From a virus: 22,822 bases of DNA. The translations under genes and the position numbers were made by a program. How positions within the stretch are numbered: position 1 is the stretch's first letter; each line of letters begins with the position of its first letter. The notes below the pieces were generated by a model. That model worked only from the letters and a program-made list of their open reading frames with translations, ran no database searches and was not told the origin of the DNA. The DNA is taken from IMG/VR virus record IMGVR_UViG_3300049484_000155, positions 1 through 22,822 of that record. One strand, given 5' to 3'. Shown in pieces: positions 95 through 21,376 of the stretch.

Positions 95-116
95 GGGGGT
101 AATATTACCCTTATGT
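95..116 (-). promoter_or_regulatory. Palindromic element, copy 1 (GGGTAATATTACCC)
   Basis: Bases 97-110 are a perfect 14-base palindrome. Read on the minus strand, GACATAAGGGTAATATTACC is followed by CCCAGGAC and the ribosome binding site of the gene starting at 74. A nearly identical string is found at 16517-16538 and a diverged one at 18845-18860, each 20-21 bases before a start codon. An operator for a dimeric DNA-binding protein is the likeliest role. A phage promoter or an RNA hairpin that affects translation is also possible. Confidence 0.6.
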
Positions 117-349: not shown

Positions 350-1828
350 CTATCTCCTCAGTAAAAGGTAGAAGTTATGCTTCTTCGCCGCGTCGTGAAT
401 GTGCCGCACCATCCCCGCTTGCTCAAGGGTCGGTACGATCTTCTGGTTGAGCATGTCCGCGTTGACACCGTAACGATAGACGGCCTTCAGCAACTTTGCG
501 TGATCTAGCTTTCCGCCTGCCCGCTGGATCGCGTCGAGCACGGACTCAAACTGCCGTCCTTGATCGGTGGAATCAACGATTGTGAACGCTGACGCCATCG
601 ACTGTTCCGTGTAATCGAGGATGTTGGCGCACCGCTTGAACAAGTCCTCGTCAAGCTCTAGCGGCAGGTCTTCAGCAACGGCCATCACAATCGCCAGCCT
701 AATAAGATGGTCAGGCTTACGCTCGTAGTACCCAGACAGCCGCATCGTGTCGTACGCCTGCGTCTTGAGGTCGCGGTACCACTCGATGTACCACTCCTCC
801 GCTCGTGGTGTCATCGTCGCAACGCCTGAGAACCCCCCAAACTTCACCAACTTCGTCGCAAGTAACGCTTGTAACACCTGGTCAGGAGGCTTCGGTAACG
901 GCGCAAACCTAGGCGTATCCATCTGCATAATGAACAAGATGCGACTAATGGTGCCGCCTAAGAACGCCGACTTAGGGATCGAATGTGCCAAGCCGTCCGG
1001 TGTAATACATCCGAGCAAGTGAACAGAAGGCGACTGCAGAACAAGCTTACCCTTGCTGCGGGTAAGATAATCAAACGGACCATCCCGACAATCAGCAATA
1101 GACGTAAGCAGCTGTATAAGGCCCTCATTATACTCTTGTTTGCCAAGGAACACCCCCAGCTCCGGTGCGAAGATGAAGAGCGTCGGTGACGCCCCGTTGA
1201 CGGAGATGCCGCCACCGGCCTTCGTCGTCACTGTCACCTGCTTGTTCATCGTGTCGAGAATGCCTTCTGGCGTACCCTTTTCATTAAGTATTTCGATGAC
1301 ATTAGCATCTCGCAGAAGCCCAACAGAAATACCCGCAGCGGTGGACTTTTTACACTTGCCGGTTGGAGCCACAAGGACGATATAGTGGTTGGGGTAGACT
1401 CGGTAGTAGCCCTTCTCAAACTTGACACGTCGGCAGAGGCATGCGCCGATGGTGGAGACGGCGCTCCAAAAGTGGAAGAGCAGCGGCGCCTCGTGGTTCT
1501 TTGTGTAGTCAAGATATTCGGCGATCCAGCCCGACTTCGGGAACACCATCTCTCTAAGTGACTCCTCAGTTTCAGCCGGACGCAACGCTCGCTCAAGGAT
1601 GATCGGGTCTTCACAGCCGAGCACGAAAGCGAACTGCCCCGCTGACAACTGCATCTTCTCTCGTATCGTGGTGAAGATTTCATCGCGTTGCGCCTCCGGT
1701 ACAAACTGATAGAAGTTCTTGACGTATTGAATGGTGCTGAGCTTTAGTTCCATCTTCGACCAGTCAATCGACGGGTCGTTGAGCATCTCCTTCAGCTTGT
1801 GGAATTGGTCTTGAATAGAGTCGACCAC
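350..1828 (-). CDS. DUF3987-like P-loop ATPase / putative replicative helicase
   Basis: A 492-residue protein resembling the DUF3987 family of phage and plasmid ATPases, often linked to primase or helicase functions. Visible are a Walker A-like loop at residues 154-163 (APTGKCKKST), a hydrophobic beta strand ending in an acidic residue at 216-224 (TLFIFAPEL) as a Walker B equivalent, and the late family signature around GGTISRILFIM. The start chosen is GTG at 1826-1828, two bases after the stop of the M15 peptidase gene, with GAGGG upstream. A longer reading from 2023 would overlap that peptidase over nearly 200 bases and its extra residues look non-native. Its place beside the polymerase fits DNA replication. 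A helicase role is inferred from family and context. Confidence 0.8.
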   Translation of the reverse strand: MVDSIQDQFHKLKEMLNDPSIDWSKMELKLSTIQYVKNFYQFVPEAQRDEIFTTIREKMQLSAGQFAFVLGCEDPIILERALRPAETEESLREMVFPKSGWIAEYLDYTKNHEAPLLFHFWSAVSTIGACLCRRVKFEKGYYRVYPNHYIVLVAPTGKCKKSTAAGISVGLLRDANVIEILNEKGTPEGILDTMNKQVTVTTKAGGGISVNGASPTLFIFAPELGVFLGKQEYNEGLIQLLTSIADCRDGPFDYLTRSKGKLVLQSPSVHLLGCITPDGLAHSIPKSAFLGGTISRILFIMQMDTPRFAPLPKPPDQVLQALLATKLVKFGGFSGVATMTPRAEEWYIEWYRDLKTQAYDTMRLSGYYERKPDHLIRLAIVMAVAEDLPLELDEDLFKRCANILDYTEQSMASAFTIVDSTDQGRQFESVLDAIQRAGGKLDHAKLLKAVYRYGVNADMLNQKIVPTLEQAGMVRHIHDAAKKHNFYLLLRR

Positions 1829-1830
1829 GG

Positions 1831-2142
1831 CTATTTGCCCTCGTCCAGTGAGTAGTGGTTGCCGTCGTTCCAACGCCCGCCCCACGTACCGCCGATGGAT
1901 TCCCAATAGAGCCCGAGCGGCTGGTGCGACTTCGACGACGTGAGGTAGCGCCCGTCGCGGAAGAGGTTTAGGTCGATCGCTAGGCGCTTGTGGTGGAAAC
2001 TCTTTTCCGCTCCGTAAGGGCAACGTGGATCACGATAGGCGTCACCGAGCGTTACCTCAAACCCCAACTCGTACGCGCGATCAATCAGTGGGGGCACCAT
2101 CCGTGCAAATCTCGACTGCTTCTGCCTCAACGTTTCGGCCAC
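1831..2142 (-). CDS. M15 (VanY/endolysin-type) metallopeptidase
   Basis: A 103-residue single-domain zinc peptidase. The M15 signature S-x-H-x(4)-A-x-D-L is present at residues 48-58 (SFHHKRLAIDL), though its usual glycine is replaced by arginine. The third zinc ligand is probably H96 in DGNHYS. Family members cut peptide bonds in peptidoglycan stems (L-Ala-D-Glu or D-Ala-D-Ala). There is no signal peptide or cell-wall-binding domain, so if it is the lysin it needs another route to the wall. The start is a GTG with GGAGGTGA four bases upstream, overlapping the stop of the preceding gene. The location inside the replication operon rather than with structural genes is unusual. Confidence 0.85.
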   Translation of the reverse strand: MAETLRQKQSRFARMVPPLIDRAYELGFEVTLGDAYRDPRCPYGAEKSFHHKRLAIDLNLFRDGRYLTSSKSHQPLGLYWESIGGTWGGRWNDGNHYSLDEGK

Positions 2143-2145
2143 GGC

Positions 2146-2361
2146 TCACCTCCATTCGTTGATTGCACCACATCCCATGCACACATAGTACGTCTCGCCT
2201 TGCTCTAGATAATCGTACCACGGACGCACCTTAAATCCGCACCTCCGACAAGCTTGCGGTCGCCGTAAATCTTCCGCTTGAGCACGGGCTTCCGTTCTTG
2301 TTTTTTCTTTCCGGGCGGTTTTTTCCGAGGTCTTTTCGAACAGCTCTAGCTGCTCACCCAT
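2146..2361 (-). CDS. Zinc-ribbon protein, unknown function
   Basis: A 71-residue protein with a very basic and acidic helical N-terminus (residues 8-34) followed by a zinc ribbon with C38-x2-C41 and C61-x2-C64. Such small phage proteins may bind nucleic acid or a polymerase partner, but the target is unknown. Its ATG overlaps the stop of the polymerase gene by one base (TGATG), and its own stop lies in the ribosome binding site of the M15 peptidase, so it is translationally coupled on both sides. The ribosome binding site is GAGGGG inside the polymerase C-terminus. Confidence 0.75.
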   Translation of the reverse strand: MGEQLELFEKTSEKTARKEKTRTEARAQAEDLRRPQACRRCGFKVRPWYDYLEQGETYYVCMGCGAINEWR

Positions 2362-3728
2362 CAGAACCCCTCCATTTCACCCCAGCATCGCCCGTGCTTT
2401 ACGTCCATCTTCACTTGCACGTCCTTACCGTTGATCGGGATTGTGTGCTGGAACGCTTCGAGGATTGCTTCACGGGTGCGCTGGCGATCTTCTGTTCGGC
2501 AGACCGTAACCACTTCATCATGGACTTGATTAACGATTTGCACGCCTCGTCGATCAAGGTTGATGAAACCAATGTTGATGAAGTCGGCTCCGGTAGATTG
2601 GATTGGATGGTTGACACTGATACCTCGTATCTTATCCTCAGGCTCGAACAGTGTTCGCAATCGCCCAAAACGGTTTTTGATTGCCCGTGACGAGAGAGCA
2701 GCTGGATAAACAATATTCCGCCAGCTTTCGATCTCGGTGATAAACCCTCGATATGCAGCCATGATCTGCTGCAGTTCGGGCATCGGAATAAGGAGACGCG
2801 ACTCGATAAGTAGCTGACGCTGAATGGTTGGGAGGTCGGCCCAGTAGTTATCCGCGAAAACGAACTTCTTGATAGTGATGTAGCGACGATCTTTGACGGC
2901 TTTGGCATGGAGCGCGTCCTCCCGGCTGACCTTCATCACGTTCATCATGTTGATGATGTGGATGCTCTCACCACGGGCGATCGCGTCGAGCCACGCGCGC
3001 ACCCCCGCTTCGTTTGCGATGATGACCAACTCCAACTGCATAGCGTCGGCCGTCACGAACTCCCACCCCTCAGGCGTGCAGTAGATAGAGCGCATGTCTT
3101 CGGGCAGGTTTTGAAACTCGGGGCCGATACCCCACGGCGTCGTCCACTTACGACTGTGAAGGCGCCCCGTCCTGGTGGTGACGAGGAAGGACGAGCGCAC
3201 GCGGCCGTCGCACCATGCGACAATCGGCCGCAAGAACGTGCCCAAGTCTTTCGTTTCTTCGCGGTAGGTGATAATATCGTTGAAGAGCGATTGCGCCTCA
3301 CTGCCAGCCGTCGCCAAGAGCGCGTTGATGATCTCCTCTTTGTCGGCCTTCAGCGCGCCTTTGTCCGTCATGCGCCCGCTGTGGAAGCCAAACTCCTTCA
3401 ACATCGCGCCAACCTGCGGGTTGCTGTTAGGGTTGAACGGCTCGCCGTCACCCTCCTTGGCGATGATCTTACCGTAAGGCTTAAGCTTCTCGTAGAGCCC
3501 CCGTAGCGCTTCCTGCTTCGACGCTTCGAGCGCGGCTTTGCGCCCAAGGTCGACGGGCATACCGTTCATCTGCATTCGGAAGACGGCTTGCGCTAGCGGC
3601 TGCGTGATGGCATGATAGAAGTCCCACTGCCCAAGGTCCATAAGGTCACGACGGAGTGACTCCCGAACATCGTGCTGCCCCACGACGTCGCGAGAGTTGT
3701 ACGTTCGGAACGTCATGCCGTAGTTCAT
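2361..3728 (-). CDS. Family A DNA polymerase (palm/fingers domain, with the exo III motif at its N-terminus)
   Basis: A 455-residue protein that replicates phage DNA. Polymerase motifs in order: T-x-T-G-R-like TTRTGRLHS (about 184-192), motif A at D228 (ADAMQLEL instead of the usual DYSQIELR), motif B with K287, F291, Y295 and W296, NHPIQSTGAD (373-382), and motif C QVHDEV with H403, D404 and E405. Residues 10-14 (YNSRD) match the exo III motif of the Pol I-type 3'-5' exonuclease, while exo I and II lie in the UDG fusion gene upstream. The enzyme is thus split inside its exonuclease domain. The ATG overlaps the stop of the zinc-ribbon gene by four bases. In motif B the usual glycine after the tyrosine is tryptophan. 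Confidence 0.93.
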   Translation of the reverse strand: MNYGMTFRTYNSRDVVGQHDVRESLRRDLMDLGQWDFYHAITQPLAQAVFRMQMNGMPVDLGRKAALEASKQEALRGLYEKLKPYGKIIAKEGDGEPFNPNSNPQVGAMLKEFGFHSGRMTDKGALKADKEEIINALLATAGSEAQSLFNDIITYREETKDLGTFLRPIVAWCDGRVRSSFLVTTRTGRLHSRKWTTPWGIGPEFQNLPEDMRSIYCTPEGWEFVTADAMQLELVIIANEAGVRAWLDAIARGESIHIINMMNVMKVSREDALHAKAVKDRRYITIKKFVFADNYWADLPTIQRQLLIESRLLIPMPELQQIMAAYRGFITEIESWRNIVYPAALSSRAIKNRFGRLRTLFEPEDKIRGISVNHPIQSTGADFINIGFINLDRRGVQIVNQVHDEVVTVCRTEDRQRTREAILEAFQHTIPINGKDVQVKMDVKHGRCWGEMEGF

Positions 3729-3988
3729 GGCCGCCGCTTCCCTTGGATTTGATCAGCGAGGGCGAAGTACCCAAGCTTACGGAGAATCTCAGGTAGCCCA
3801 TCCACGGGGCCGTCAGCACGAGGATCGTACTTGACGCTCGGCGCGTCGTAGTCCTTATGCGGGCACAGCCCAGGGTTGCCCACCGGAATCTCGTTGTGGC
3901 ACTTAGGGCAGATGAAGTTGATCTCCACGTCGCGCACGACGAACTTGAACTGCTTACGAAAGTCTTCCCATCGGGTCGGTGGCGTCAC
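3725..3988 (-). CDS. Zinc-finger-like protein inserted between the two polymerase/exonuclease halves
   Basis: An 87-residue protein with C27-x2-C30 (ICPKC) and C42-x-H44 (LCPH), a plausible zinc site. The rest is hydrophilic, with a helical C-terminus. It starts at GTG, overlapping the stop of the UDG-exonuclease gene by four bases (GTGA), with GGAGGAGGTT upstream. It ends with a four-base ATGA overlap with the polymerase. The three genes are therefore a translationally coupled set. It lies exactly between exonuclease motifs II and III, so it may help join or regulate the split enzyme. That role is inference, and I do not recognise the family. Confidence 0.75.
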   Translation of the reverse strand: MTPPTRWEDFRKQFKFVVRDVEINFICPKCHNEIPVGNPGLCPHKDYDAPSVKYDPRADGPVDGLPEILRKLGYFALADQIQGKRRP

Positions 3989-5028
3989 TTGTCAACCTCC
4001 TCCATCTCCTCAGACCAGTCAGGTGCGAGGCTCTTCCACTCAGGGCGATCTGAATGCACAGAGCCCAAGAAGCGCAAGTTGTGCGGCAACGACGGATACG
4101 CCAGTGCGTGCATCGCGTGAGTGTCGTACCACTCACCGCCCAACTCAAAGCCGTATTGTGTAAGCCAGAATCGTTCGTGCTGCTCGTATTGCACGTTCTT
4201 GGGCACGTCGGGCGCAGCCAGCAGACGGTAGATTGCTCGTATCACGCGCAGCTCATCCTCGTCCGTCTTCCAGTAGCGAGTGCCATCGTCGTTCACGAAC
4301 GGCACGCACATCGCATACGACATGAAGCCGAAGCCGAATAGCACGAGCTGTCCGCCAGGATTCTCAATGTCAACGGTGACCACCACCTTGGCGGCAATCA
4401 GCGTCTCGACCGCAAGCTCCACGTCAAGCGGCAAGGTGGGCACTTGGAATTCTTCCTTCGGCCGCTCGTACCCGCCGCTCGCGAATCGGAACGCCTTCTT
4501 GAGGTCGGCCACGACGACGTTCCACATGGTGCGGTCGCGCATTAGCGCCGCAGGGTGGATCGTCGGCAGCACCAGAAACTTATGGATCGGGTCGGTGTAC
4601 GGATAACCCCGATAGGAGTAGATGCCAGCGCCCGGCGAGCCTCGTCGTGTGATGATCCAGTTGGCAGAGTTGCCTAAGGGAATGACGACCTTCAGCGAGG
4701 GCATCTCACTCAGTTCAGGTAGCAAGAAGGTCTCGCTACAGTGTTCGATTGCAGCCGCCGCGTGTTCGTAGGAGCCCATATCGTTGTTGGGCACCTGACA
4801 CCGTACTGTGTTACGGATGAGGCAGGAATCGCGGTCGAAGCCCGCCTTGCGCGTCAGGGTGTAGAGGGTGCGGCCTGCGCCGCCTGTGAATGGTCGTCCG
4901 CTCATAATCTCGTCGCTTGCGGGGGCTTCACCTACGAAGGCGATCTCGGCCATCGGGGGGCCTGACCCTGTAACGGGGCCAGGTGCGTGATAGAGGGGGC
5001 AGCCTTCACACTCACTCGGCTTCGGCAT
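3985..5028 (-). CDS. Family 4-like uracil-DNA glycosylase fused to an N-terminal part of a 3'-5' exonuclease
   Basis: A 347-residue fusion. Residues 1-180 are a Fe-S uracil-DNA glycosylase: cysteines C7, C10, C77 and C97 as cluster ligands, GEAP at 33-36 and IHPAAL at 157-162. This enzyme removes uracil from DNA. Residues 200-347 resemble the Pol I-type exonuclease: exo I DIE (220-222), exo II NVQYE (278-282, with Glu where Asp is usual) and the conserved YDTHAM...HNLRFLGS segment. The exo III motif is missing here and appears at the start of the polymerase gene. The ATG has GAGGAG seven bases upstream. The gene overlaps its upstream neighbour by 17 bases and the zinc-ribbon gene downstream by four. 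Confidence 0.88.
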   Translation of the reverse strand: MPKPSECEGCPLYHAPGPVTGSGPPMAEIAFVGEAPASDEIMSGRPFTGGAGRTLYTLTRKAGFDRDSCLIRNTVRCQVPNNDMGSYEHAAAAIEHCSETFLLPELSEMPSLKVVIPLGNSANWIITRRGSPGAGIYSYRGYPYTDPIHKFLVLPTIHPAALMRDRTMWNVVVADLKKAFRFASGGYERPKEEFQVPTLPLDVELAVETLIAAKVVVTVDIENPGGQLVLFGFGFMSYAMCVPFVNDDGTRYWKTDEDELRVIRAIYRLLAAPDVPKNVQYEQHERFWLTQYGFELGGEWYDTHAMHALAYPSLPHNLRFLGSVHSDRPEWKSLAPDWSEEMEEVDK

Positions 5029-6210: not shown

Positions 6211-6351
6211 CTACTTCGTCACACCAAGAAAGCTAAGAACGCTCGCCCACAACATCTGCAGCAACGTTTGCGCCGTTGTGCGTGGTCCACGTTGCTCAGC
6301 TCTCCTGAGAGTTTCTATCGCCTGATACCCGGTGATTTCACGGTAGATCAC
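6211..6351 (-). CDS. 46-residue putative small membrane protein
   Basis: A short gene starting at GTG (6349-6351), overlapping the stop of the ParB-methyltransferase gene by four bases (GTGA) and preceded by GGGAGGAG. The N-terminal half is charged (IYREITGYQAIETLRRAEQR). Residues 25-44 (TTAQTLLQMLWASVLSFLGV) are hydrophobic enough for one membrane span. A holin-like or membrane-anchoring role is possible but not shown. After its stop about 35 bases separate it from the next start, a larger gap than usual in this operon. Confidence 0.55.
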   Translation of the reverse strand: MIYREITGYQAIETLRRAEQRGPRTTAQTLLQMLWASVLSFLGVTK

Positions 6352-7631
6352 TTTGGCTCCTCCCATCCAAGAGGTTTGGTGAACACGAGCATGTCACCCG
6401 CGAGCGGTAGGATTTGACGGTTCTCTTTGGCACGCTCAACATGGAACGCCTGCCAGATGGACGTTGGCCACGGTAGCATGATGCGGTCAATGGGCGCCAT
6501 TCCAGTCTCACGGAAGAACGAGTACCACGTGAAGGGCCAGTCCATGAACGGTAGCCCTTCAGGGAGGCGGAATTTCTGCTTCATGATAACAGCACAGACG
6601 ACTCCACCTGGGTCGAGCACGCGCGCCGTGTCGTGCGCCAGCTTCTTCAAGAACTGAAGGAACTCGATGAAGCCGATGGCACCGACGCCATCTTGAGAGT
6701 ACTCCTCGCCCACCATGTTCCAGTACGGTGGATCGAGGAAGACGAGCTGGGGAGGCGAGTCATAGGGCGGGTAGCCCTCCGACATATTCCACTTGAAGAT
6801 GTCGGGTCGGCGTGGGTCGATGTCGCTGGCGAAGCATCGTCGCTTCATTTCACGACAGACATCAATAGTAATGCCACCGCCCGCGAATGGATCGACGACT
6901 GTGTCGCCTTCTTCGGTCCAGTAGTGCACAACATTCTCGACATAATCACCAGGTAGTGATCCAGGATGAGGTTTGCCATACTTTGGGTTGAGTCCGCCGA
7001 AGTACCAGATGTCGTAGACTTTCGGGTTGAAGTCCGACGCCGGCTTTTCAAGCGCGACTGCGAGTTTAAATACTGATTCAACAGACGTAGTCCCTTCGTC
7101 AAGGTGCTTCACCTTTGCGGCGATCATCGGGTTCTTCGCGGCGGCCTCGTGAATCTTCTTCATCTTGTCGTAGGTACGCTCGCTCACGCCGGCAAATTTT
7201 GCGAGCATTTCACGAGTGTCGCCTCGCTCTTCGGCGGGAATCTCGCGGTCGGGTAGGTCGGTGCGCAAGCCTGCGCGGAGAGCCGACCGCAGCGAGAAAA
7301 TCTCTGACAGCCGGTTGGTCTCACGCATGATCTCGGTGAACGTCTTACGGCGATAGCGGTTGAACTCGATCAGCTTTTCTTCGATCAGCACATCGTCTTC
7401 AAACGGCAAGACGTTGCAAGTGATCTCGGTCCAGCCGAGTGCTTGCGCGGCGAGCCAGCGACGGTGCCCGCTGATGATGGTGCCGTCGTCCAGCACTTCG
7501 ATTGGGGTGAGTAGGCCGACTCCGGTCATCGAGCGCTTGAGGTCATCGAACTCCGGCCCGCCCGCTGGCGCGTAGATTTGCGCGTTGAGTGGGTGGGGGT
7601 GCAGCTCGCTCAGCTTACGGGTCTCAGGCAC
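6348..7631 (-). CDS. ParB-like N-terminal domain fused to a DNA methyltransferase
   Basis: A 427-residue fusion. Residues 1-100 are a ParB/Srx-type domain with the SGHRR motif at 54-58. Residues 100-190 are helical with a helix-turn-helix-like ERTYDKMKK. Residues 200-427 are a methyltransferase: HPGSLPG before motif I DPFAGGG (247-253), which binds S-adenosylmethionine, and catalytic motif IV DPPYW (300-304). Motif I precedes IV, the gamma-type order, although motif I itself resembles the N4/N6 beta class. It likely methylates adenine N6 or cytosine N4 in phage DNA, perhaps against host restriction. The target is unknown. The start is a GTG with AAGGAG seven bases upstream, overlapping the vWA gene by eight bases. 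Confidence 0.88.
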   Translation of the reverse strand: MPETRKLSELHPHPLNAQIYAPAGGPEFDDLKRSMTGVGLLTPIEVLDDGTIISGHRRWLAAQALGWTEITCNVLPFEDDVLIEEKLIEFNRYRRKTFTEIMRETNRLSEIFSLRSALRAGLRTDLPDREIPAEERGDTREMLAKFAGVSERTYDKMKKIHEAAAKNPMIAAKVKHLDEGTTSVESVFKLAVALEKPASDFNPKVYDIWYFGGLNPKYGKPHPGSLPGDYVENVVHYWTEEGDTVVDPFAGGGITIDVCREMKRRCFASDIDPRRPDIFKWNMSEGYPPYDSPPQLVFLDPPYWNMVGEEYSQDGVGAIGFIEFLQFLKKLAHDTARVLDPGGVVCAVIMKQKFRLPEGLPFMDWPFTWYSFFRETGMAPIDRIMLPWPTSIWQAFHVERAKENRQILPLAGDMLVFTKPLGWEEPK

Positions 7632-10909: not shown

Positions 10910-11098
10910 CTACTCCTTCCTGGCGGACGCTTCTTCGAGCGCCCAGTTGTACGGGATGAACACGCTCTCCACAATGGCGAGGTGTTCGGGGGAGCAAAAC
11001 AGCCCACCTATCGGCGTTGCGCCGAGGTAGATATCAGCAAAGATGCGAGTCGCGTGATCGCCCTTCTCGTCGCGCACTATGCTGAGACGTTCGGCCAT
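10910..11098 (-). CDS. 62-residue protein, unknown function
   Basis: A small protein beginning MAERLSIVRDEKGDHATRIF and ending YNWALEEASARKE. The fold appears mixed alpha/beta. The ATG at 11096-11098 lies inside the end of the Sak4-like ATPase gene (22-base overlap) and has GGGAG nine bases upstream. A longer in-frame reading to 11293 would lie wholly within the ATPase gene and has non-native composition, so it is rejected. No family recognised. Confidence 0.66.
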   Translation of the reverse strand: MAERLSIVRDEKGDHATRIFADIYLGATPIGGLFCSPEHLAIVESVFIPYNWALEEASARKE

Positions 11099-11847
11099 CG
11101 GATTGACTCCCGAATGAGGTTGTACGGGTTGACTTTGCCGGTGCCATCGTCCGTGATGTCCAGTACTGGAGGCATCCCACGTCGCCCGTGGCGCGTCGCT
11201 CCAGGAAAGATACCATCGTTGATGGTCCACAGCGTCACCTTGCGCTTGCGCTCCATCGTCACTTCTGAGCGTACGTGCCAGAACTCGTCGCACGCGATGG
11301 GCAGAAGGTCGACGAGCTGCCCCGGCATACGAATCTGTGCCATCACGCGCTCGGTGTTCTTGTCCTGCACGATCTCGAAGTGGGCGACCACCAGCACGTG
11401 GACGTACGGCTTGATGCCGTCGATGAACTGAAGGATTCGGTCAGCGGCGAGCCCCCAGTCCTGGATGGCTGGAATCGTGCGCTTGCCCAAGGCCATCGCA
11501 GATTGCAAGAACATGCGATGACCACGAGTGATGGAGTCCAGGACGATGGTGGAGCACGGCATCTCCAGCGACCCATCTTTTGACTTGAGGGTAATCTTAC
11601 CCTCAGGTGTTCGCTTCTGTACCGCAAGCGTCAACTCCAAGAGCGACTCGTACGAGATTTTGGTGGGCGGGATGAACGGCACCGACGCGCCGATCATCGA
11701 GGCCATTCCGCCATCGAAGTCCACGACCAGGGGATCGGGGAAGCCGGCGCAAAGTGTGGTCTTGCCGACGCCCTTGAAGCCGACAACCAACGCATTGAAC
11801 AGGAGGTTCTCGCGTGAGATGTCGGCTGTGTTGCTGAGCTCAATCAT
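11077..11847 (-). CDS. Sak4-like P-loop ATPase (AAA_24 type), putative recombinase or annealing factor
   Basis: A 256-residue RecA-like ATPase. Walker A is G23-F-K-G-V-G-K-T30, DFDGG follows at 43-47, Walker B is TIVLDS (100-105), and VVAHFE at 152-157 fits the sensor strand. Family members in phages promote single-strand annealing or recombination together with a DUF669-like ssDNA-binding protein, which is present two genes downstream. The ATG at 11845-11847 is preceded by GAGGAGCAAGACG. A longer reading to 11904 lies in the overlapping small gene and is rejected. A near-perfect palindrome, TGAGGGTAATCTTACCCTCA, lies inside the gene at 11586-11605. Confidence 0.85.
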   Translation of the reverse strand: MIELSNTADISRENLLFNALVVGFKGVGKTTLCAGFPDPLVVDFDGGMASMIGASVPFIPPTKISYESLLELTLAVQKRTPEGKITLKSKDGSLEMPCSTIVLDSITRGHRMFLQSAMALGKRTIPAIQDWGLAADRILQFIDGIKPYVHVLVVAHFEIVQDKNTERVMAQIRMPGQLVDLLPIACDEFWHVRSEVTMERKRKVTLWTINDGIFPGATRHGRRGMPPVLDITDDGTGKVNPYNLIRESIRWPNVSA

Positions 11848-11974
11848 CGTCTTGCTCCTCGAACTCTGTGCAGTCGCACTCGACGAAGAGGCACGAGCCG
11901 TCAATGTCGTGGTCTTCGTACTTGTGCCCGCACTCGCACACGTCGGACGGTTCGGGTTCAGTTGCCGTTGTCAT
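11840..11974 (-). CDS. 44-residue Cys/His zinc-binding protein
   Basis: A very small acidic protein with the pattern C13-x-C15-G-H17, H22, C28, then C33-x-C35 (CECGHKYEDHDIDGSC). This spacing suggests a zinc knuckle. The ATG follows AGAGGAGGTGACGG, a strong ribosome binding site located in the end of the RecB-like gene (17-base overlap). The C-terminus EEQDDD is read through the ribosome binding site of the Sak4-like ATPase, with an eight-base overlap. Its role is unknown. Confidence 0.68.
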   Translation of the reverse strand: MTTATEPEPSDVCECGHKYEDHDIDGSCLFVECDCTEFEEQDDD

Positions 11975-12875
11975 CCGTCACCTCCTCTTGGGTCATCGGG
12001 TCGATCAGCTTGTAGTGGTTGCGGTACGCCTCCGCCTGCCACCCGTACTTACAGATGGGCTTGAACGGGCACACCTTGCCGTATGCATTGACGCACGACT
12101 TGGTGTTACGCACAGGCAAGCGCCGTCGCTGCGTGACGAGGTCCATCTGCGACAGCAGGTACGAAGTGTCGATCGCCCACCGATCCAACTCCGCATCGGA
12201 GCGCTGGGTGATCTTCTGCTGAAACTCGAACTTCAACTCCTTCGCGTTCTTGCGGGGCTTCTTCAGCGTGGGGATGACCACCGACCGAATGTCCAAGTTG
12301 GGAAAGCGTTGACGCATGGCGTAGACGTAACCCGTGCTCTTGGCGTCCATGTCGAACTGCTGAAAGAAGGAGCCGAACTCCGAGCCGGTGGTCTTCCACT
12401 CGATGATGGCGGGGTCGCCGTTGACCCGTGCGGCGAGGTCGATCTTGACCGTCAGCATCTGCAAGTCGGGCAGAGACGCTTCAAGCTCCAGTTCGGTGGC
12501 GGGCCCGACGCCTGGGATTTGGATGACTTCGAACTCGGGCTCCTCGCCGAAGATGGAGAGGTAGTAGCCCACCGCTTCCGTGGTGAAGTCGAGGATGCGA
12601 CCGCGCTCAAGGTTGACGTTCTCGTACGACGAGCACGCACGGTCGATCGTCTCGATAGCTGCCGTGAGCATGTCGCCGGTCTTCCCGCCACGAAACTTGG
12701 CGCGCATCGCCTCGTGATACGCGCTACCGATGACGAAGTAATCCTCCTTCACAGCGGGCCGAATGGCGGGCACCGCCAACTCAGGTATTCCGTTGACTTG
12801 GTAGTCCCACTTCTGCTCGCACTCTTGGAATTCGTGAATGCGGCTGTAGCCGCGTGGTGACGGTCCGTCACTCAT
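11958..12875 (-). CDS. RecB/Cas4-like PD-(D/E)XK nuclease with Fe-S cluster cysteines
   Basis: A 305-residue nuclease. Nuclease motifs: GSAYHEAM (50-57) with H54, D146 in VKIDLAAR, E159-x-K161 in IIEWKTT, and the later STGYVYAM. Four cysteines, C19 near the N-terminus and C261, C269 and C275 near the C-terminus, match the layout of Fe-S RecB-family nucleases such as Cas4 or AddB. It probably resects double-strand ends for the nearby Sak4-like recombination system. The ATG at 12873-12875 follows GGGAGAGAGT. A longer reading to 12914 is rejected. It overlaps the 49-residue gene upstream by eight bases and the zinc protein downstream by 17. Confidence 0.87.
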   Translation of the reverse strand: MSDGPSPRGYSRIHEFQECEQKWDYQVNGIPELAVPAIRPAVKEDYFVIGSAYHEAMRAKFRGGKTGDMLTAAIETIDRACSSYENVNLERGRILDFTTEAVGYYLSIFGEEPEFEVIQIPGVGPATELELEASLPDLQMLTVKIDLAARVNGDPAIIEWKTTGSEFGSFFQQFDMDAKSTGYVYAMRQRFPNLDIRSVVIPTLKKPRKNAKELKFEFQQKITQRSDAELDRWAIDTSYLLSQMDLVTQRRRLPVRNTKSCVNAYGKVCPFKPICKYGWQAEAYRNHYKLIDPMTQEEVTDDNGN

Positions 12876-13017
12876 ACTCTCTCCCGACGTTCTCCAGCAC
12901 CGACATAATGTCAAACGCTAGGGCCAGAGTCTCGTCCGTTGTTAGGTTGGGGAACCGCTTCTTCAGTAGGGCCACCAGGGCCTTCGCTTGTGCGTACTCC
13001 TTCGGCGTGATCGGCAC
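12868..13017 (-). CDS. 49-residue protein, unknown function
   Basis: A small helical protein beginning at GTG: VPITPKEYAQAKALVALLKK, then RFPNLTTDETLALAFDIMSVLENVGREYE. Composition and amphipathic pattern look native, unlike the alternative frame over the same bases. The ribosome binding site is GGGGGT about six bases before the GTG, and the C-terminus overlaps the RecB-like gene by eight bases. It may assist the recombination set, by position only. Confidence 0.6.
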   Translation of the reverse strand: MPITPKEYAQAKALVALLKKRFPNLTTDETLALAFDIMSVLENVGREYE

Positions 13018-15833: not shown

Positions 15834-16436
15834 CTATGCAAACGCCTCGTTGACCATCTCCTGAAACCACCCGCTATATTTTTCCCATGCGGCAGCCCAT
15901 GCGGCAGCCCATGAGGCATCCCATGAGGCAGCCCGTGCGGCAGACCGTGCGGAAGCCCGTGCGGCATCCAGTGCGGCAGCCCGTGCGGCAGCCCATGCGG
16001 CATCCCGTTCGGAAGCCCGTTCGGAAGCCCGTGCGGCAGACCGTGCGGCATCCAGTGCGGCAGCCCGTTTCGATTCGTCGCCGGTTTCCAGATACTCTCG
16101 GACCACGGACGGTGCGTTCCACAGGTGGATTACGTCTAGGGCACACCGACACGCAAATGCTCGCAGGATGGGGTCGGCGTCTATCCGTTTGTGGATGATG
16201 CGCCGCGTAGCAACATGCTTGTCCGTATCTGCCACGATCTCTCCATCGAGGTCCACGAGGCAGAGGGTGTTTCCCGGTGCGTATTTCAGGGCGTCGAATG
16301 GATGGACCGAAGCATGCAGGCCGCGTTCGCAGAGGATGACCGGCAACTCGCCATCGTACTCCAGCCATTCGCCATCTGGGGGGATGGGTTGTCCGTTACG
16401 TAGGGTGTCCCCAACGAAGTGATAAGCGCGTAACAT
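15834..16436 (-). CDS. DUF7666-like protein with Ala-rich tetrad repeat tail
   Basis: A 200-residue protein. Residues 1-122 form a globular domain (HFVGDTLRNGQPIPPDGEWL, then CERGLHAS, then CALDVIHLWNAPSVVREYLE) that matches my recollection of the DUF7666 family in phages. Residues about 123-182 are a four-residue repeat of the form x-A-A-R or x-A-A-W, encoded by fifteen 12-base units. The tail would be a long alanine-rich helix with Arg or Trp on one face. A short C-terminal segment, EKYSGWFQEMVNEAFA, follows. The ATG has TAGGAGGC six bases upstream. Function is unknown. Confidence 0.75.
   Translation of the reverse strand: MLRAYHFVGDTLRNGQPIPPDGEWLEYDGELPVILCERGLHASVHPFDALKYAPGNTLCLVDLDGEIVADTDKHVATRRIIHKRIDADPILRAFACRCALDVIHLWNAPSVVREYLETGDESKRAAALDAARSAARASERASERDAAWAAARAAALDAARASARSAARAASWDASWAAAWAAAWEKYSGWFQEMVNEAFA
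15889..16068. repeat. Fifteen tandem 12-base units (consensus GCGGCAGCCCGT)
   Basis: Fifteen directly adjacent units of exactly 12 bases, each with zero to four differences from GCGGCAGCCCGT on the plus strand. They encode the Ala-rich tetrads of the DUF7666-like protein. Because the unit is a multiple of three, gain or loss of units would not shift the frame, so copy number may vary among relatives. Confidence 0.92.
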
Positions 16437-16510: not shown

Positions 16511-16538
16511 GACATAGGGGTAATATTACCCTCATGTC
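16511..16538 (-). promoter_or_regulatory. Palindromic element, copy 2 (extended dyad)
   Basis: The core GGGTAATATTACCC (16518-16531) is flanked by GACAT (16511-16515) and ATGTC (16534-16538), extending the dyad outward. Read on the minus strand it gives GACATGAGGGTAATATTACC, one base different from copy 1 over that length. It lies between the stop of the 84-residue gene and the 16-residue leader frame, whose ATG is 20 bases past the run of four C. A dimeric regulator's operator is likely. Confidence 0.65.
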
Positions 16539-16556: not shown

Positions 16557-16811
16557 TTAAGGCAGCTTGTTCTCTGGCAGACCCAGATCACGAGCGATCT
16601 GCTTGGCCTTCTCCCGGTTGGCGATGCGCTCCCGATCGCGAGCACGATTGATCGAGGCGTCCGCGTTGGCGATGAGCTTCGCGAGCAGGATGTACTCGCG
16701 GGCGTCCTCGCCCTCCGCACGACCACGCATGATGCGGGAGTGCTTGACGCGGCGGAGCGCGTCGAGGGCGGTTGCGACGAGGCGAAGCTCGTCAGGCTTG
16801 GTTACGCGCAT
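16557..16811 (-). CDS. 84-residue basic helical protein, unknown function
   Basis: A protein starting MRVTKPDELRLVATALDALR, mostly helical and basic, with a long charged helix INRARDRERIANREKAKQIA near the C-terminus, which could contact nucleic acid. The ATG follows GAGAGGAGGTGACACCAC, almost the same leader as three other genes nearby. It is the first gene leftward of the origin-like gap, so it might be expressed from that region. Function is not known. Confidence 0.68.
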   Translation of the reverse strand: MRVTKPDELRLVATALDALRRVKHSRIMRGRAEGEDAREYILLAKLIANADASINRARDRERIANREKAKQIARDLGLPENKLP

Positions 16812-17287
16812 GTGGTGTCACCTCCTCTCGCTGAAGGTGGGAGGTAGATGCCCCCCGTTCTACTTGCGTTCTCTGTGAGGTATGTCTCGTAAATCCTTGA
16901 ATTTAAAGGATTTGCGGGATTTGCCCCCCGTTCTCTCCGTTCTACCTCCGTGTGAATGAACCTAAGGGTAACGTATAAAGATAGCTATTCCTTATGTTCA
17001 GTTATATATAAGTAAATACATAGACTTTTATTGGTTTACACGACTCATCTTGCACAAGGACGTAGAACGGTAGAACGGGAGAACAGGATCGAAATTTGTC
17101 AATCTTTTCGCGCATTTACGAGACATACTTAAAGGTAGAACTCATGTAGAATGTAATTTTTACACGATCCTTGCTGCGCCATCACTTAGTGGCATCTCAC
17201 ACCCGCCTGCTGAGTCAGCCTACCATTCAAACTACGGAGGTCGTGCGGGTTTGGATGCCTTGTCTCAGTCACGCCCGAAGGCGTGTG
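16812..17287. other. Origin-like, gene-free AT-rich region with inverted iterons
   Basis: No supported gene lies in these 476 bases. The 15-mer GTATGTCTCGTAAAT (16880-16894) recurs exactly inverted at 17114-17128. GTTCTAC/GTTCTCT units lie at 16857, 16868, 16930 and 16939 on the plus strand and inverted at 17062, 17070, 17077 and 17134. Both arms run in the order GTTCTAC, 15-mer, then paired GTTCTCYC-GTTCTACC units, facing an AT-rich core at 16947-17061 (with TTATATATAAGTAAATACA). An inverted repeat AAATCCTT/AAGGATTT lies at 16891-16913. This is typical of an iteron-type replication origin or a large operator. Confidence 0.6.
17270..17285 (-). terminator. UUCG tetraloop hairpin after the 42-residue gene
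   Basis: On the minus strand CACGCC-TTCG-GGCGTG forms a perfect six-base-pair stem with the very stable UUCG loop, two bases after the stop codon. There is no T run after it, so it is either a weak terminator or an mRNA-stabilising 3' hairpin. Confidence 0.6.
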
Positions 17288-17451: not shown

Positions 17452-17664
17452 CTAGCGCACCTTGACGACTCGCCCGTCGAGTAGCTCGATCTCCGCGTAC
17501 CACGAGTGCGGCGCAGGATAGTGTGGTCCTTCGACAAACGCCTTACCCGTGCGGGGTAGCGCGCCTCCAAAGGGTCCGGGTTGGTAGGCGCTCACGTACT
17601 CGCCCTTCGCCACTGCCTCGCGGAGCGCCCGCTTTGTGCGGAAGTTGGGCTCCACATAAGCCAT
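17452..17664 (-). CDS. 70-residue phage protein with PGPFGG and EGPHYPAPH motifs
   Basis: A small protein starting MAYVEPNFRTKRALREAVAK, with YQPGPFGG in the middle and VEGPHYPAPHSWYAEIELLD near the end. I recall this pattern from short hypothetical proteins of many phages. Its function is not known to me. The ATG has GAGAGGAGGTGACACTCA upstream, matching the leader of the 84-residue gene at nearly every base. Its stop is 35 bases before the start of the next gene. Confidence 0.75.
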   Translation of the reverse strand: MAYVEPNFRTKRALREAVAKGEYVSAYQPGPFGGALPRTGKAFVEGPHYPAPHSWYAEIELLDGRVVKVR

Positions 17665-17700
17665 TGAGTGTCACCTCCTCTCGTTCGCGCGTCCTCGCGC

Positions 17701-17730
17701 GTAGCGCTGTCTATGTCGCCCTCGCTCCGC
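17701..17730 (-). repeat. 30-base repeat, copy A (inverted to 18229-18258)
   Basis: On the minus strand this reads GCGGAGCGAGGGCGACATAG followed by ACAGCGCTAC. It matches 18229-18258 on the plus strand at 24 of 30 positions, so the two copies form an inverted pair around the 147-residue gene. Together with the upstream CACAAGC it also resembles the sequence after the 74-residue gene (13580-13609). Confidence 0.6.
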
Positions 17731-17748
17731 AGGTTAAGTGCGCTTGTG

Positions 17749-18192
17749 TTACTTCTGCAGCAAAGGGTGCGTGGGGACGAGCTTGCGGGCGCGCGTGAAA
17801 GCCTCGATACAGCGGCTGCGCCCGAACGCCTGGTGCACTATCTCGATCATGTCGTCGTTCTTGCTGTCGAAGGCGGCGAGGATTGCCTTGTCGGCGCTCT
17901 CGCGCTCCGCCTTGCTCTTGTTTTCCTGACCGACGCGCAGGATCGACGCCTTGGAGTTGCTGATGCGCCACTGCGCCCACAACTCTCCGAGGTAGGTCAG
18001 GAGCTCGCACAGATCCTCGTCGCTGTACGCCTTCACGTCATCGACCGTGACGCTGTACGGGCGAGCCTTGCGGCGCCAGTCCTTGGGATCGTCCGCGGGG
18101 TTGACGATCAAGAGCTCGGGCTTGTCGAACGTGCCTTCACCGTAGCACGCTTCGACGATCGACTTCTTGAGTTCGCTCTCCATCTTTGCCAT
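17749..18192 (-). CDS. 147-residue protein, unknown function
   Basis: A hydrophilic, mostly helical protein beginning MAKMESELKKSIVEACYGEG. There is a segment ELLIVNPADDPKDWRRKARP at residues 26-45 and LCELLTYLGELWAQWRI in the middle. It has no signal peptide or evident zinc site. The ATG follows GAGGCAAGCGAC. It is the first leftward gene after the divergent control region, which suggests very early expression. Inverted 30-base repeats flank it. I do not recognise a family. Confidence 0.72.
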   Translation of the reverse strand: MAKMESELKKSIVEACYGEGTFDKPELLIVNPADDPKDWRRKARPYSVTVDDVKAYSDEDLCELLTYLGELWAQWRISNSKASILRVGQENKSKAERESADKAILAAFDSKNDDMIEIVHQAFGRSRCIEAFTRARKLVPTHPLLQK

Positions 18193-19616: not shown

Positions 19617-19821
19617 TCTTGCACGCGACGCAAAGGCGACCCTGACGATCATCCTCAAACTCGACGGGCAGGTGGGCGTCGTCGGTCCCGTCGCCAATAA
19701 ACTTTTGTGCTACGGCATGCTAGAGATGGCGAAGTCGGCAATCGCGGCGTTCGTCGAGCCGTCCGCGATCCTTCAGCCGAAGATCATTCCGCCGAACGAT
19801 GCGGGGCGACCACGTGGTTGA
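19603..19821 (+). CDS. 72-residue protein, unknown function
   Basis: A small helical protein starting MDANDLARDAKATLTIILKL, with a hydrophobic middle (VGVVGPVANKLLCYGMLEMA) and a proline-rich end (ILQPKIIPPNDAGRPRG). TGGAGGCG lies just upstream, and the ATG at 19603 has the best spacing, although 19600 is also an ATG. It overlaps the previous gene by 14 bases and the large terminase by 23. Its position between terminase genes suggests a packaging accessory role, which is inference. Confidence 0.65.
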   Translation: MDANDLARDAKATLTIILKLDGQVGVVGPVANKLLCYGMLEMAKSAIAAFVEPSAILQPKIIPPNDAGRPRG

Positions 19822-21376
19822 AGACGCCGACGTCATCCAACTCTCGCCTGACCAACTCGCGGACATTCGCCGTCGTGCGGAGTCTGACCTCTTTTATTTT
19901 GCCAAGGGCATCCTCAACTACAACTATCTTGATGAGGAGTTCCATGGCCCAATCTGCCGATTCATCCAGTCAGGCGTCCAACGTAAGCTCATCGCCCTAC
20001 CGCGCGGCCATTTCAAAACAACGGTTGGAACAATTTCTTATGCGATTTGGCGCGCCGTCAAAGACCCGTCCATCCGCGTACTTATCTCCAATGCGACCGC
20101 CACAAATGCGGAGAAGTTCCTCGAAGCCATAAAGACACAATTTGAGTCGAACGGTCTGCTGCGCGCCCTCTGGCCCGAAGTCATCCCCGACATCACAAAG
20201 GTGCGGTGGAACAACACCGCCGTCGAGCTTCGACGCGACAAGCCGTGGACGGAGGCCACCTTCGAAGCCATCGGTGTGGGCGGGCACGTTGCGTCGCGCC
20301 ACTACGACCTCATCATCAAGGACGACCTCATCGACCTCTCTGACAAGCAAGACCTCGACGACGTGGCCCAACTCATCCAAACCGCCGTCGCGTGGCACCA
20401 ATATTCATACGGGCTATTCGTCAACGTCGAGAACGGCGAAGAGGTCGTCATTGGTACGCGGTGGCACCGTGACGACCTTCTCGCGTGGATCAACAAGAAT
20501 CAGAGCGTCGTGAAGCTCGGCGAGACCTCGTCGATGGCCTTCCACTACTACGAGCATGCCATTCGAGGGACGGAGCCGATCTTCAAACGAAGCGCGGATG
20601 GCAAACATGGCTTCACTCGCGAGGGGCTTGACCACCTTCGACGAACTCTTGGACCTTACAAATATAGCGGCCAATATCAGCTCAATCCTTCCGATCCTTC
20701 CGTCGCGGAGTTTCAGCGCACGTGGCTACGGTATTATTCTCTCACGGACGACGGACGGATACTTCTGCCAGGGGTGGTTAATGCCCGAGGCGGAAATGTG
20801 TCGTATGGGGTCGGCCAACTAGATCGCTACATTCTCGTTGACCCCGCCCTCTCGAAGAAGCACAAGGCTGACTACACCGGCCTCGTCACCGTCGGAGTGT
20901 CGCCTGGCGCGTACAAGATCGTGCTCGAAGCACTCGATCTGAAGGCCGAACCGCTTGAGTTGATCGAGGCGATCATCGCCGCGACGGAACGCTGGCGCCC
21001 CATCTGCGTGGGCATCGAGGCCGTCGCCTTCCAGAAGATGATCAAGCCCTTCTTGGAGTTCGTGTCGAGGTCGCGCGGCAAACACGTGCCGGTGCGTGAG
21101 TTCAAGACAGACACTCGCACGTCGAAGGAGAATCGTATTCGTGCGCTTGTCCCGGAGTTTGCGCGCGGCCTCATCTTTATTGGCGCGTCGATGGGAGAGC
21201 TAGAAAGTGAATACGACGGCTTCCCCGTGGCGTCCGATCAGCATTTGCTGGATGCACTGGCTTATGGTCCTCAGTTGTGGCAGAGTGGTGAGCCAATGTC
21301 TGATGAAGAGGTTGCGGAGGCCGAGTGGGAAGAAGAGGTCGCCCTCGCCGGGCGCAACGAATTGACGGGGTATTGA
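19799..21376 (+). CDS. terL: Large terminase subunit (ATPase and nuclease)
   Basis: A 525-residue packaging motor. The ATPase half has Walker A LPRGHFKTT (67-75), Walker B LIIKDD (171-176) and the coupling-like IGTRWHRDD (218-226). The nuclease half has D348 (ILVDPALSKK), E407 (VGIEAVAF) and D485 (HLLDALAYG), the three acidic residues of the RNase H-like fold. It drives DNA into the prohead and cuts the concatemer. The ATG at 19799 overlaps the preceding gene. A GTG at 19814 is an alternative start and neither has a strong ribosome binding site. Length and order are usual for tailed phages. Confidence 0.95.
   Translation: MRGDHVVEDADVIQLSPDQLADIRRRAESDLFYFAKGILNYNYLDEEFHGPICRFIQSGVQRKLIALPRGHFKTTVGTISYAIWRAVKDPSIRVLISNATATNAEKFLEAIKTQFESNGLLRALWPEVIPDITKVRWNNTAVELRRDKPWTEATFEAIGVGGHVASRHYDLIIKDDLIDLSDKQDLDDVAQLIQTAVAWHQYSYGLFVNVENGEEVVIGTRWHRDDLLAWINKNQSVVKLGETSSMAFHYYEHAIRGTEPIFKRSADGKHGFTREGLDHLRRTLGPYKYSGQYQLNPSDPSVAEFQRTWLRYYSLTDDGRILLPGVVNARGGNVSYGVGQLDRYILVDPALSKKHKADYTGLVTVGVSPGAYKIVLEALDLKAEPLELIEAIIAATERWRPICVGIEAVAFQKMIKPFLEFVSRSRGKHVPVREFKTDTRTSKENRIRALVPEFARGLIFIGASMGELESEYDGFPVASDQHLLDALAYGPQLWQSGEPMSDEEVAEAEWEEEVALAGRNELTGY

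Follow-up and report, generated by a model that had tools for sequence, protein, structure and literature searches.

Where does replication of this podovirus-like phage begin, and which protein opens the DNA there? The question is raised by a gene-free gap in a 22,822-nt virus record of the linear class, probably a fragment, the whole of which was analysed and is called the window here. Its leftward early module encodes a DUF3987 protein, a family A polymerase, a ParB-methyltransferase fusion, a vWA protein, a Sak4-like protein and an exonuclease, while its rightward late module starts with the terminase. The element studied sits in the gap between the two modules, which on the terminase side still contains small leftward ORFs. 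We consider it fairly probable that this element is the replication origin of the phage, most likely opened by the DUF3987 helicase. The genes that bear on this reading are:

350-2023, minus strand: DUF3987 protein, a predicted MCM-like AAA+ helicase with a C-terminal winged helix; proposed initiator and putative iteron binder
2361-5028, minus strand: family A DNA polymerase, in two ORFs (2361-3728 and 3985-5028) with an 87-aa ORF between them
6348-7631, minus strand: fusion of ParB_N, a helical domain and an N6/N4 DNA methyltransferase; rival candidate for binding the arms
11077-12914, minus strand: Sak4-like annealing protein (11077-11904) and exonuclease (11958-12914) of the early module
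19799-21376, plus strand: large terminase, the landmark across the putative origin from the early module

The split of the polymerase gene is also present in phage ctLwi270 and in the close relative G024. In the DUF7666 gene (15834-16436, minus strand), an array of 12-nt repeats at 15884-16070 keeps alternative frames open. Besides, the exact palindrome GGGTAATATTACCC occurs twice in the window (97-110 and 16518-16531), with a one-mismatch copy at 11589-11602. Its copies are embedded in the longer common sequence GGGGTAATATTACCCT(T/C)ATGTC. By shuffling, no such pair is expected, and the two copies, lying in short gaps of the leftward operon, appear operator-like.

Anatomy of the two-armed element

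The first-pass annotation had described a perfect inverted 15-mer and about nine GTTCTMC-type units, arranged in two mirror-image arms of the same internal order around a core, and had proposed a replication origin. The 15-mer pair is real but forms part of a larger feature, an imperfect inverted repeat of about 105 nt with a core, in which positions 16858-16959 match 17048-17151 over 106 columns with 69% identity. The score of this alignment was 34.0, against a maximum of 19.5 in 2000 shuffles. Since both arms align as a whole, their internal order is indeed the same. The parts of the element are:

16858-16959, plus strand: left (early-side) arm, with four GTTCTMY units directed towards the core
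16960-17047, no strand: core of 88 nt and 30% GC, the proposed DNA unwinding element, which includes the AT-richest 60 nt of the window
17002-17020, plus strand: TTATATATAAGTAAATACA, within the core as the first-pass annotation had placed it
17048-17151, minus strand: right (terminase-side) arm, matching the left arm in reverse complement with 69% identity, its five units directed towards the core
16880-16894, plus strand: second-class repeat GTATGTCTCGTAAAT, left copy
17114-17128, minus strand: second-class repeat, right copy, perfect inverse of GTATGTCTCGTAAAT
16857-16863, plus strand: unit GTTCTAC
16868-16874, plus strand: unit GTTCTCT
16930-16936, plus strand: unit GTTCTCT
16939-16945, plus strand: unit GTTCTAC
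17062-17068, minus strand: unit GTTCTAC
17070-17076, minus strand: unit GTTCTAC
17078-17084, minus strand: unit GTTCTCC
17135-17141, minus strand: unit GTTCTAC
17146-17152, minus strand: unit ATTCTAC

Chance does not explain the 15-mer pair: in 300 dinucleotide shuffles of a 401-bp stretch, perfect inverted matches had a mean maximal length of 7.8, and none was longer than 11. Hairpins and self-palindromes aside, no other exact inverted 13-mer pair in the window lies this close together. The GTTCTMY units number four on the plus strand in the left half and four on the minus strand in the right half, with none reversed, and the ATTCTAC copy brings them to nine, all facing the core; in shuffles such units had a mean count of 0.26 and a maximum of 3. 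The region is also as gene-free and AT-rich as had been claimed, with 40% GC against 58% for the window and no overlapping ORF of at least 60 aa in the operon direction, and the core coincides with the AT-richest 60 nt and the AT-richest 100 nt of the window. DnaA boxes (TTATNCACA) were not found in the window's element, and among the relatives only ctLwi270 and vir526 have one each.

Short repeats in numbers beyond chance stand beside an AT-rich candidate unwinding region. We regard the element as probably an iteron-type origin of phage replication whose mirror-image layout is unusual. It shares repeated units beside an AT-rich unwinding region with the iteron origins of theta plasmids (Rep_3, RepA_N), but its units point inwards from both sides instead of forming a single direct array, and a search for Rep_3 found this protein in none of 24 records. 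In the lambda-type O origin, too, iterons of a phage are combined with an AT-rich region; the present element differs in not lying inside a replication gene and in having two arrays, not one, and phage O (PF04492) was matched in 0 of 24 records.

Conservation of the layout in relatives

Searches of viral contigs with single proteins (TerL, Sak4 and the 84-aa neighbour of the element) returned no close relatives, and the TerL alignments revealed a divergence too great for use as a search. The nearest deposited phage is ctLwi270 (MW202554), with 37-39% identity in the primase-like protein and about 33% in TerL. It has an element at the same place as that of the window, with 73-nt arms that are 81% complementary and 101 nt apart, and its arm sequence is unrelated to that of the window. 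In ctLwi270 an insertion that resembles an intein or similar element (L004:10650-11652) separates the ATPase part of the large terminase from the nuclease part.

Beyond ctLwi270, ten deposited phages with the DUF3987/polymerase module and 23 metagenomic records, mainly found through the DUF3987 protein, were scanned as whole genomes for long inverted arms, with block-shuffled controls. The top hit fell between the early module and terminase/portal in vir526, the Desulfofustis phage, ctMlz233, Mel-JY34 and, weakly, Vibrio ABTNL-3, and in the same interval in the metagenomic records G001-G008, G010, G011, G013, G015, G017 and G022. With scores of 21-45, all of these hits exceeded the best value from the respective shuffled control. 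The repeat is at 44.1-44.3 kb in Mel-JY34 and at 40.6-40.8 kb in ABTNL-3. Of the 25 genomes in which both landmarks (early module and terminase) were located, 18 (ctLwi270, vir526, ctMlz233, the Desulfofustis phage, Mel-JY34, ABTNL-3 and 12 metagenomic phages) have their strongest long inverted repeat in the gap that separates the two landmarks, against 5.3 expected, with a Poisson-binomial P of 6e-8 that ignores shared ancestry and relies on approximate landmark positions.

A convincing element is absent from the other seven (119X, Tiera, Aeromonas P5, Kuura, G009, G012 and G016), the first four of which have a DUF3987-type protein and no detected two-armed repeat. Wide-gap hits in G009 and G012 were rejected as arms and resemble inverted coding duplications. 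Tiera (L015:43928-44071) and Kuura (L017:43241-43381) each have a tandem duplication of about 70 nt in a gene-free gap near the record end.

Across the relatives the layout of the arms is kept while their sequence is not, nearer relatives excepted. Concerted evolution of the arms was only partly seen, and in the nearest pair, G001 and G002, equivalent arms are more alike between the genomes than the two arms within a genome. Two records found by a search with the ParB-methyltransferase fusion, G024 (58% identity) and G025 (38%), do keep the unit: both have two-armed elements of TTCTAC on the terminase side of the early module, and in the window, G024 and G025 taken together, exact TTCTAC copies are on the plus strand in 10/10 cases left of the core and on the minus strand in 9/9 cases right of it. 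The units of G026 are TTCTGC, and a second unit, AAGCTATTGA, is common to G026 and G025.

The cores share composition. The AT-richest 60-mer of the whole record lies in the element core in 15 of 26 cases, and the cores of the relatives usually have an A/T run of at least 8 and TATATA steps. These two features are what is enriched, instead of a conserved TAAGTA motif, which was present in 7 of 23 cores and was not established. A TATAAGTA-type element recurs in the cores of G008, G011, G013, G017 and ctLwi270, at a frequency that is not statistically established. In 16 of 20 cores the A strand of the A/T homopolymer is oriented alike with respect to the early module (P 0.012), which is suggestive only; the core may be directional despite the symmetric arms.

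The first-pass annotation had held that relatives with the flanking genes and without the repeat units would speak against an origin. This comparison mostly favours the origin, with the two-armed layout kept at the syntenic place in 18 of 25 relatives and the unit itself in G024 and G025; its weak side is the seven scored genomes without a clear repeat. Several complete relatives have GC-skew turning points close to the element, but the signs are opposite and gene orientation changes nearby, so that skew speaks neither for nor against an origin there.

GTTCTAC arrays in unrelated phages

When convergent GTTCTAC arrays were sought by a pattern scan, 33 loci emerged, against about 25 expected by chance according to our own estimate. 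The number found is close to that expected, and therefore only arrays with an alignment of the arms and an informative gene context were counted. Three lineages of such arrays (L165, L177 and the L178 group) look real. Large primase-helicase genes precede these arrays, with about 45-55 nt between array and 3' gene end or an overlap of the two, and encode PriCT_2/Toprim/VapE in L165, Toprim in L177 and PrimPol/VapE in the L178 group. These arrays resemble the element of the window in the GTTCTAC unit and the two convergent arms, and in L165 and L177 also in the AT-rich core. They differ from it in standing directly behind a primase-helicase gene of a different protein family, and the L178 group differs further by a core of only about 45% AT and an imperfect polarity, with some units reversed. 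The records with GTTCTAC arrays gave no DUF3987 or D5_N match. A search of a limited literature collection for GTAGAAC iterons or the origins of this phage group found nothing relevant.

Candidate initiator proteins

No conserved initiator gene adjoins the element in the relatives. The proteins common to them are only the DUF3987 protein, the polymerase, the ParB-methyltransferase, Sak4, the exonuclease, the terminase, the portal and two small proteins, among which the DUF3987 protein and the ParB_N-helical-methyltransferase fusion are plausible binders of the arms. The first-pass annotation had seen no initiator of a known family, and this does not hold, as the same window encodes both a predicted MCM-like AAA+ helicase with a C-terminal winged helix and, as second candidate, the fusion protein.

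The true start of the DUF3987 protein is probably internal to the ORF at 350-2023. Its model has a pLDDT of 74.5, and the best solved matches of the AAA+ domain are MCM helicases (residues 137-452; Z 19.3 over 269 residues at 3.3 A). Residues 461-531 are predicted, with a pLDDT of about 80, to have the H-E-H-H-E-E element order of a winged helix. Since the protein models as an MCM-like AAA+ helicase, the PHROGs label 'DNA primase' is probably misleading.

The closest known counterpart is the Rep helicase of SaPI-type elements, which recognises iterons by its C-terminal domain, apparently as two hexamers, and is self-loading, with examples in SaPIbov1, SaPI5 and SCCmec Cch/Cch2 (PMC7581432). 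The phage likewise has short iterons and, in the same genome, a DUF3987 protein whose predicted structure combines an MCM-like AAA+ core with a C-terminal winged helix as candidate DNA-binding domain. The SaPI origin is directly behind the rep gene, as are the L165, L177 and L178-group arrays behind theirs, whereas the phage element (16858-17151) is not directly downstream of the helicase gene (350-2023). That gene is 15 kb away, which counts against an origin opened by this helicase. The phage further differs from SaPI in having its own polymerase, in arms that form a long inverted repeat, and in a helicase that by Pfam is DUF3987 and not DUF927 or D5_N. The C-termini of DUF3987 and VapE proteins have no sequence homology.

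We prefer the DUF3987 helicase over the ParB fusion as the binder, because SaPI-type Reps work in this way and VapE-type phages carry GTTCTAC beside a helicase gene. We infer binding, melting, loading and bidirectionality as follows. The mirror-image arrays would serve as initiator-binding units flanking an AT-rich unwinding core, and the helicase would bind the GTTCTAC units via its C-terminal winged helix, with one ring assembling on each arm. It would then melt the core and thereby be loaded as two opposed hexamers, and two forks would depart in opposite directions, elongated by the family A polymerase of the phage.

It is unlikely, while deserving consideration, that the element is an origin whose arms are instead bound by the ParB_N-helical-methyltransferase fusion, in a parS-like array through which the origin is marked or methylated, the helicase being recruited later. 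Its N domain is ParB-like and includes the GHRR motif, and its helical domain resembles that of Noc/Spo0J. Of 24 records with the repeat, 22 have the fusion, which is absent from the five deposited relatives where no repeat was detected (EBPR3, 119X, Tiera, P5 and Kuura), an association with an odds ratio of 20 and a P of 0.0035, uncorrected for ancestry. Both kinds of exception occur, however: vir526 and G015 have the repeat and no ParB_N match, whereas G009, G012 and G016 have the fusion protein and no clear repeat, and the VapE-type phages with GTTCTAC arrays gave at most weak matches to the fusion. In most relatives the fusion gene is kept between those of Sak4 and the polymerase.

Functions other than an origin

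The main explanation that does without an origin, and a rather improbable one in our view, is a symmetric operator or promoter region that switches between early and late transcription. Mirror-image operator arrays can loop, which would suit this explanation, and the element is intergenic and close to where gene orientation switches from early to late. It does not mark the point of divergence, because the genes on both sides run the same way (an 84-aa ORF at 16557-16811 and small ORFs at 17452-18192, all on the minus strand). Three observations argue against a switch: a search for sigma-70-like promoters found none in the element, in most relatives no part of the record is richer in AT than the core, and in other phages the GTTCTAC arrays are placed at the 3' ends of primase-helicase genes.

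A role in DNA packaging (cos/pac) or as a genome end is very improbable. The terminase genes of the relatives are only a few kb from the element, but several genes stand in between, many of them in the early direction, and linear records do not have the element at their ends. Such symmetry and an AT-rich core are not known from pac or cos sites. A site for attP-like site-specific recombination, with arm sites and a core, can be dismissed almost entirely: some attP sites do have arm-type repeats around a core, but tyrosine integrase (PF00589), the one recombinase class searched for, was found in 0 of 24 records with 14 of 14 control genomes positive; the window itself is a fragment.

A structured RNA element was considered and is not supported. 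The single strand of the element can fold, but there was no Rfam hit, and the arm mismatches (112 against 121, P 0.6) lack a G-U bias, which speaks against a conserved transcribed hairpin. Support is thus lacking for an integrase, Rep_3, phage O or RNA-hairpin reading.

Implications for phage replication

The origins of lytic phages beyond the model systems are mostly unmapped, and sequence similarity cannot find them. The combination of the longest inverted repeat, the AT maximum and a fixed place between early module and terminase yields a candidate origin in most of a diverse group whose arms are unrelated in sequence. Besides, it points to a concrete initiator candidate, the poorly characterised DUF3987 family, with a putative binding site that is directly testable.

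We tentatively propose, as a generalisation that may well turn out otherwise, that DUF3987 proteins are the self-loading, MCM-like initiator helicases of a large podovirus-like group, in which a dyad origin would load two opposed hexamers and the arm sequences would turn over quickly together with the binding domain. If this is true, the DUF3987 protein and its two-armed origin would be a phage counterpart of the MCM double hexamer.
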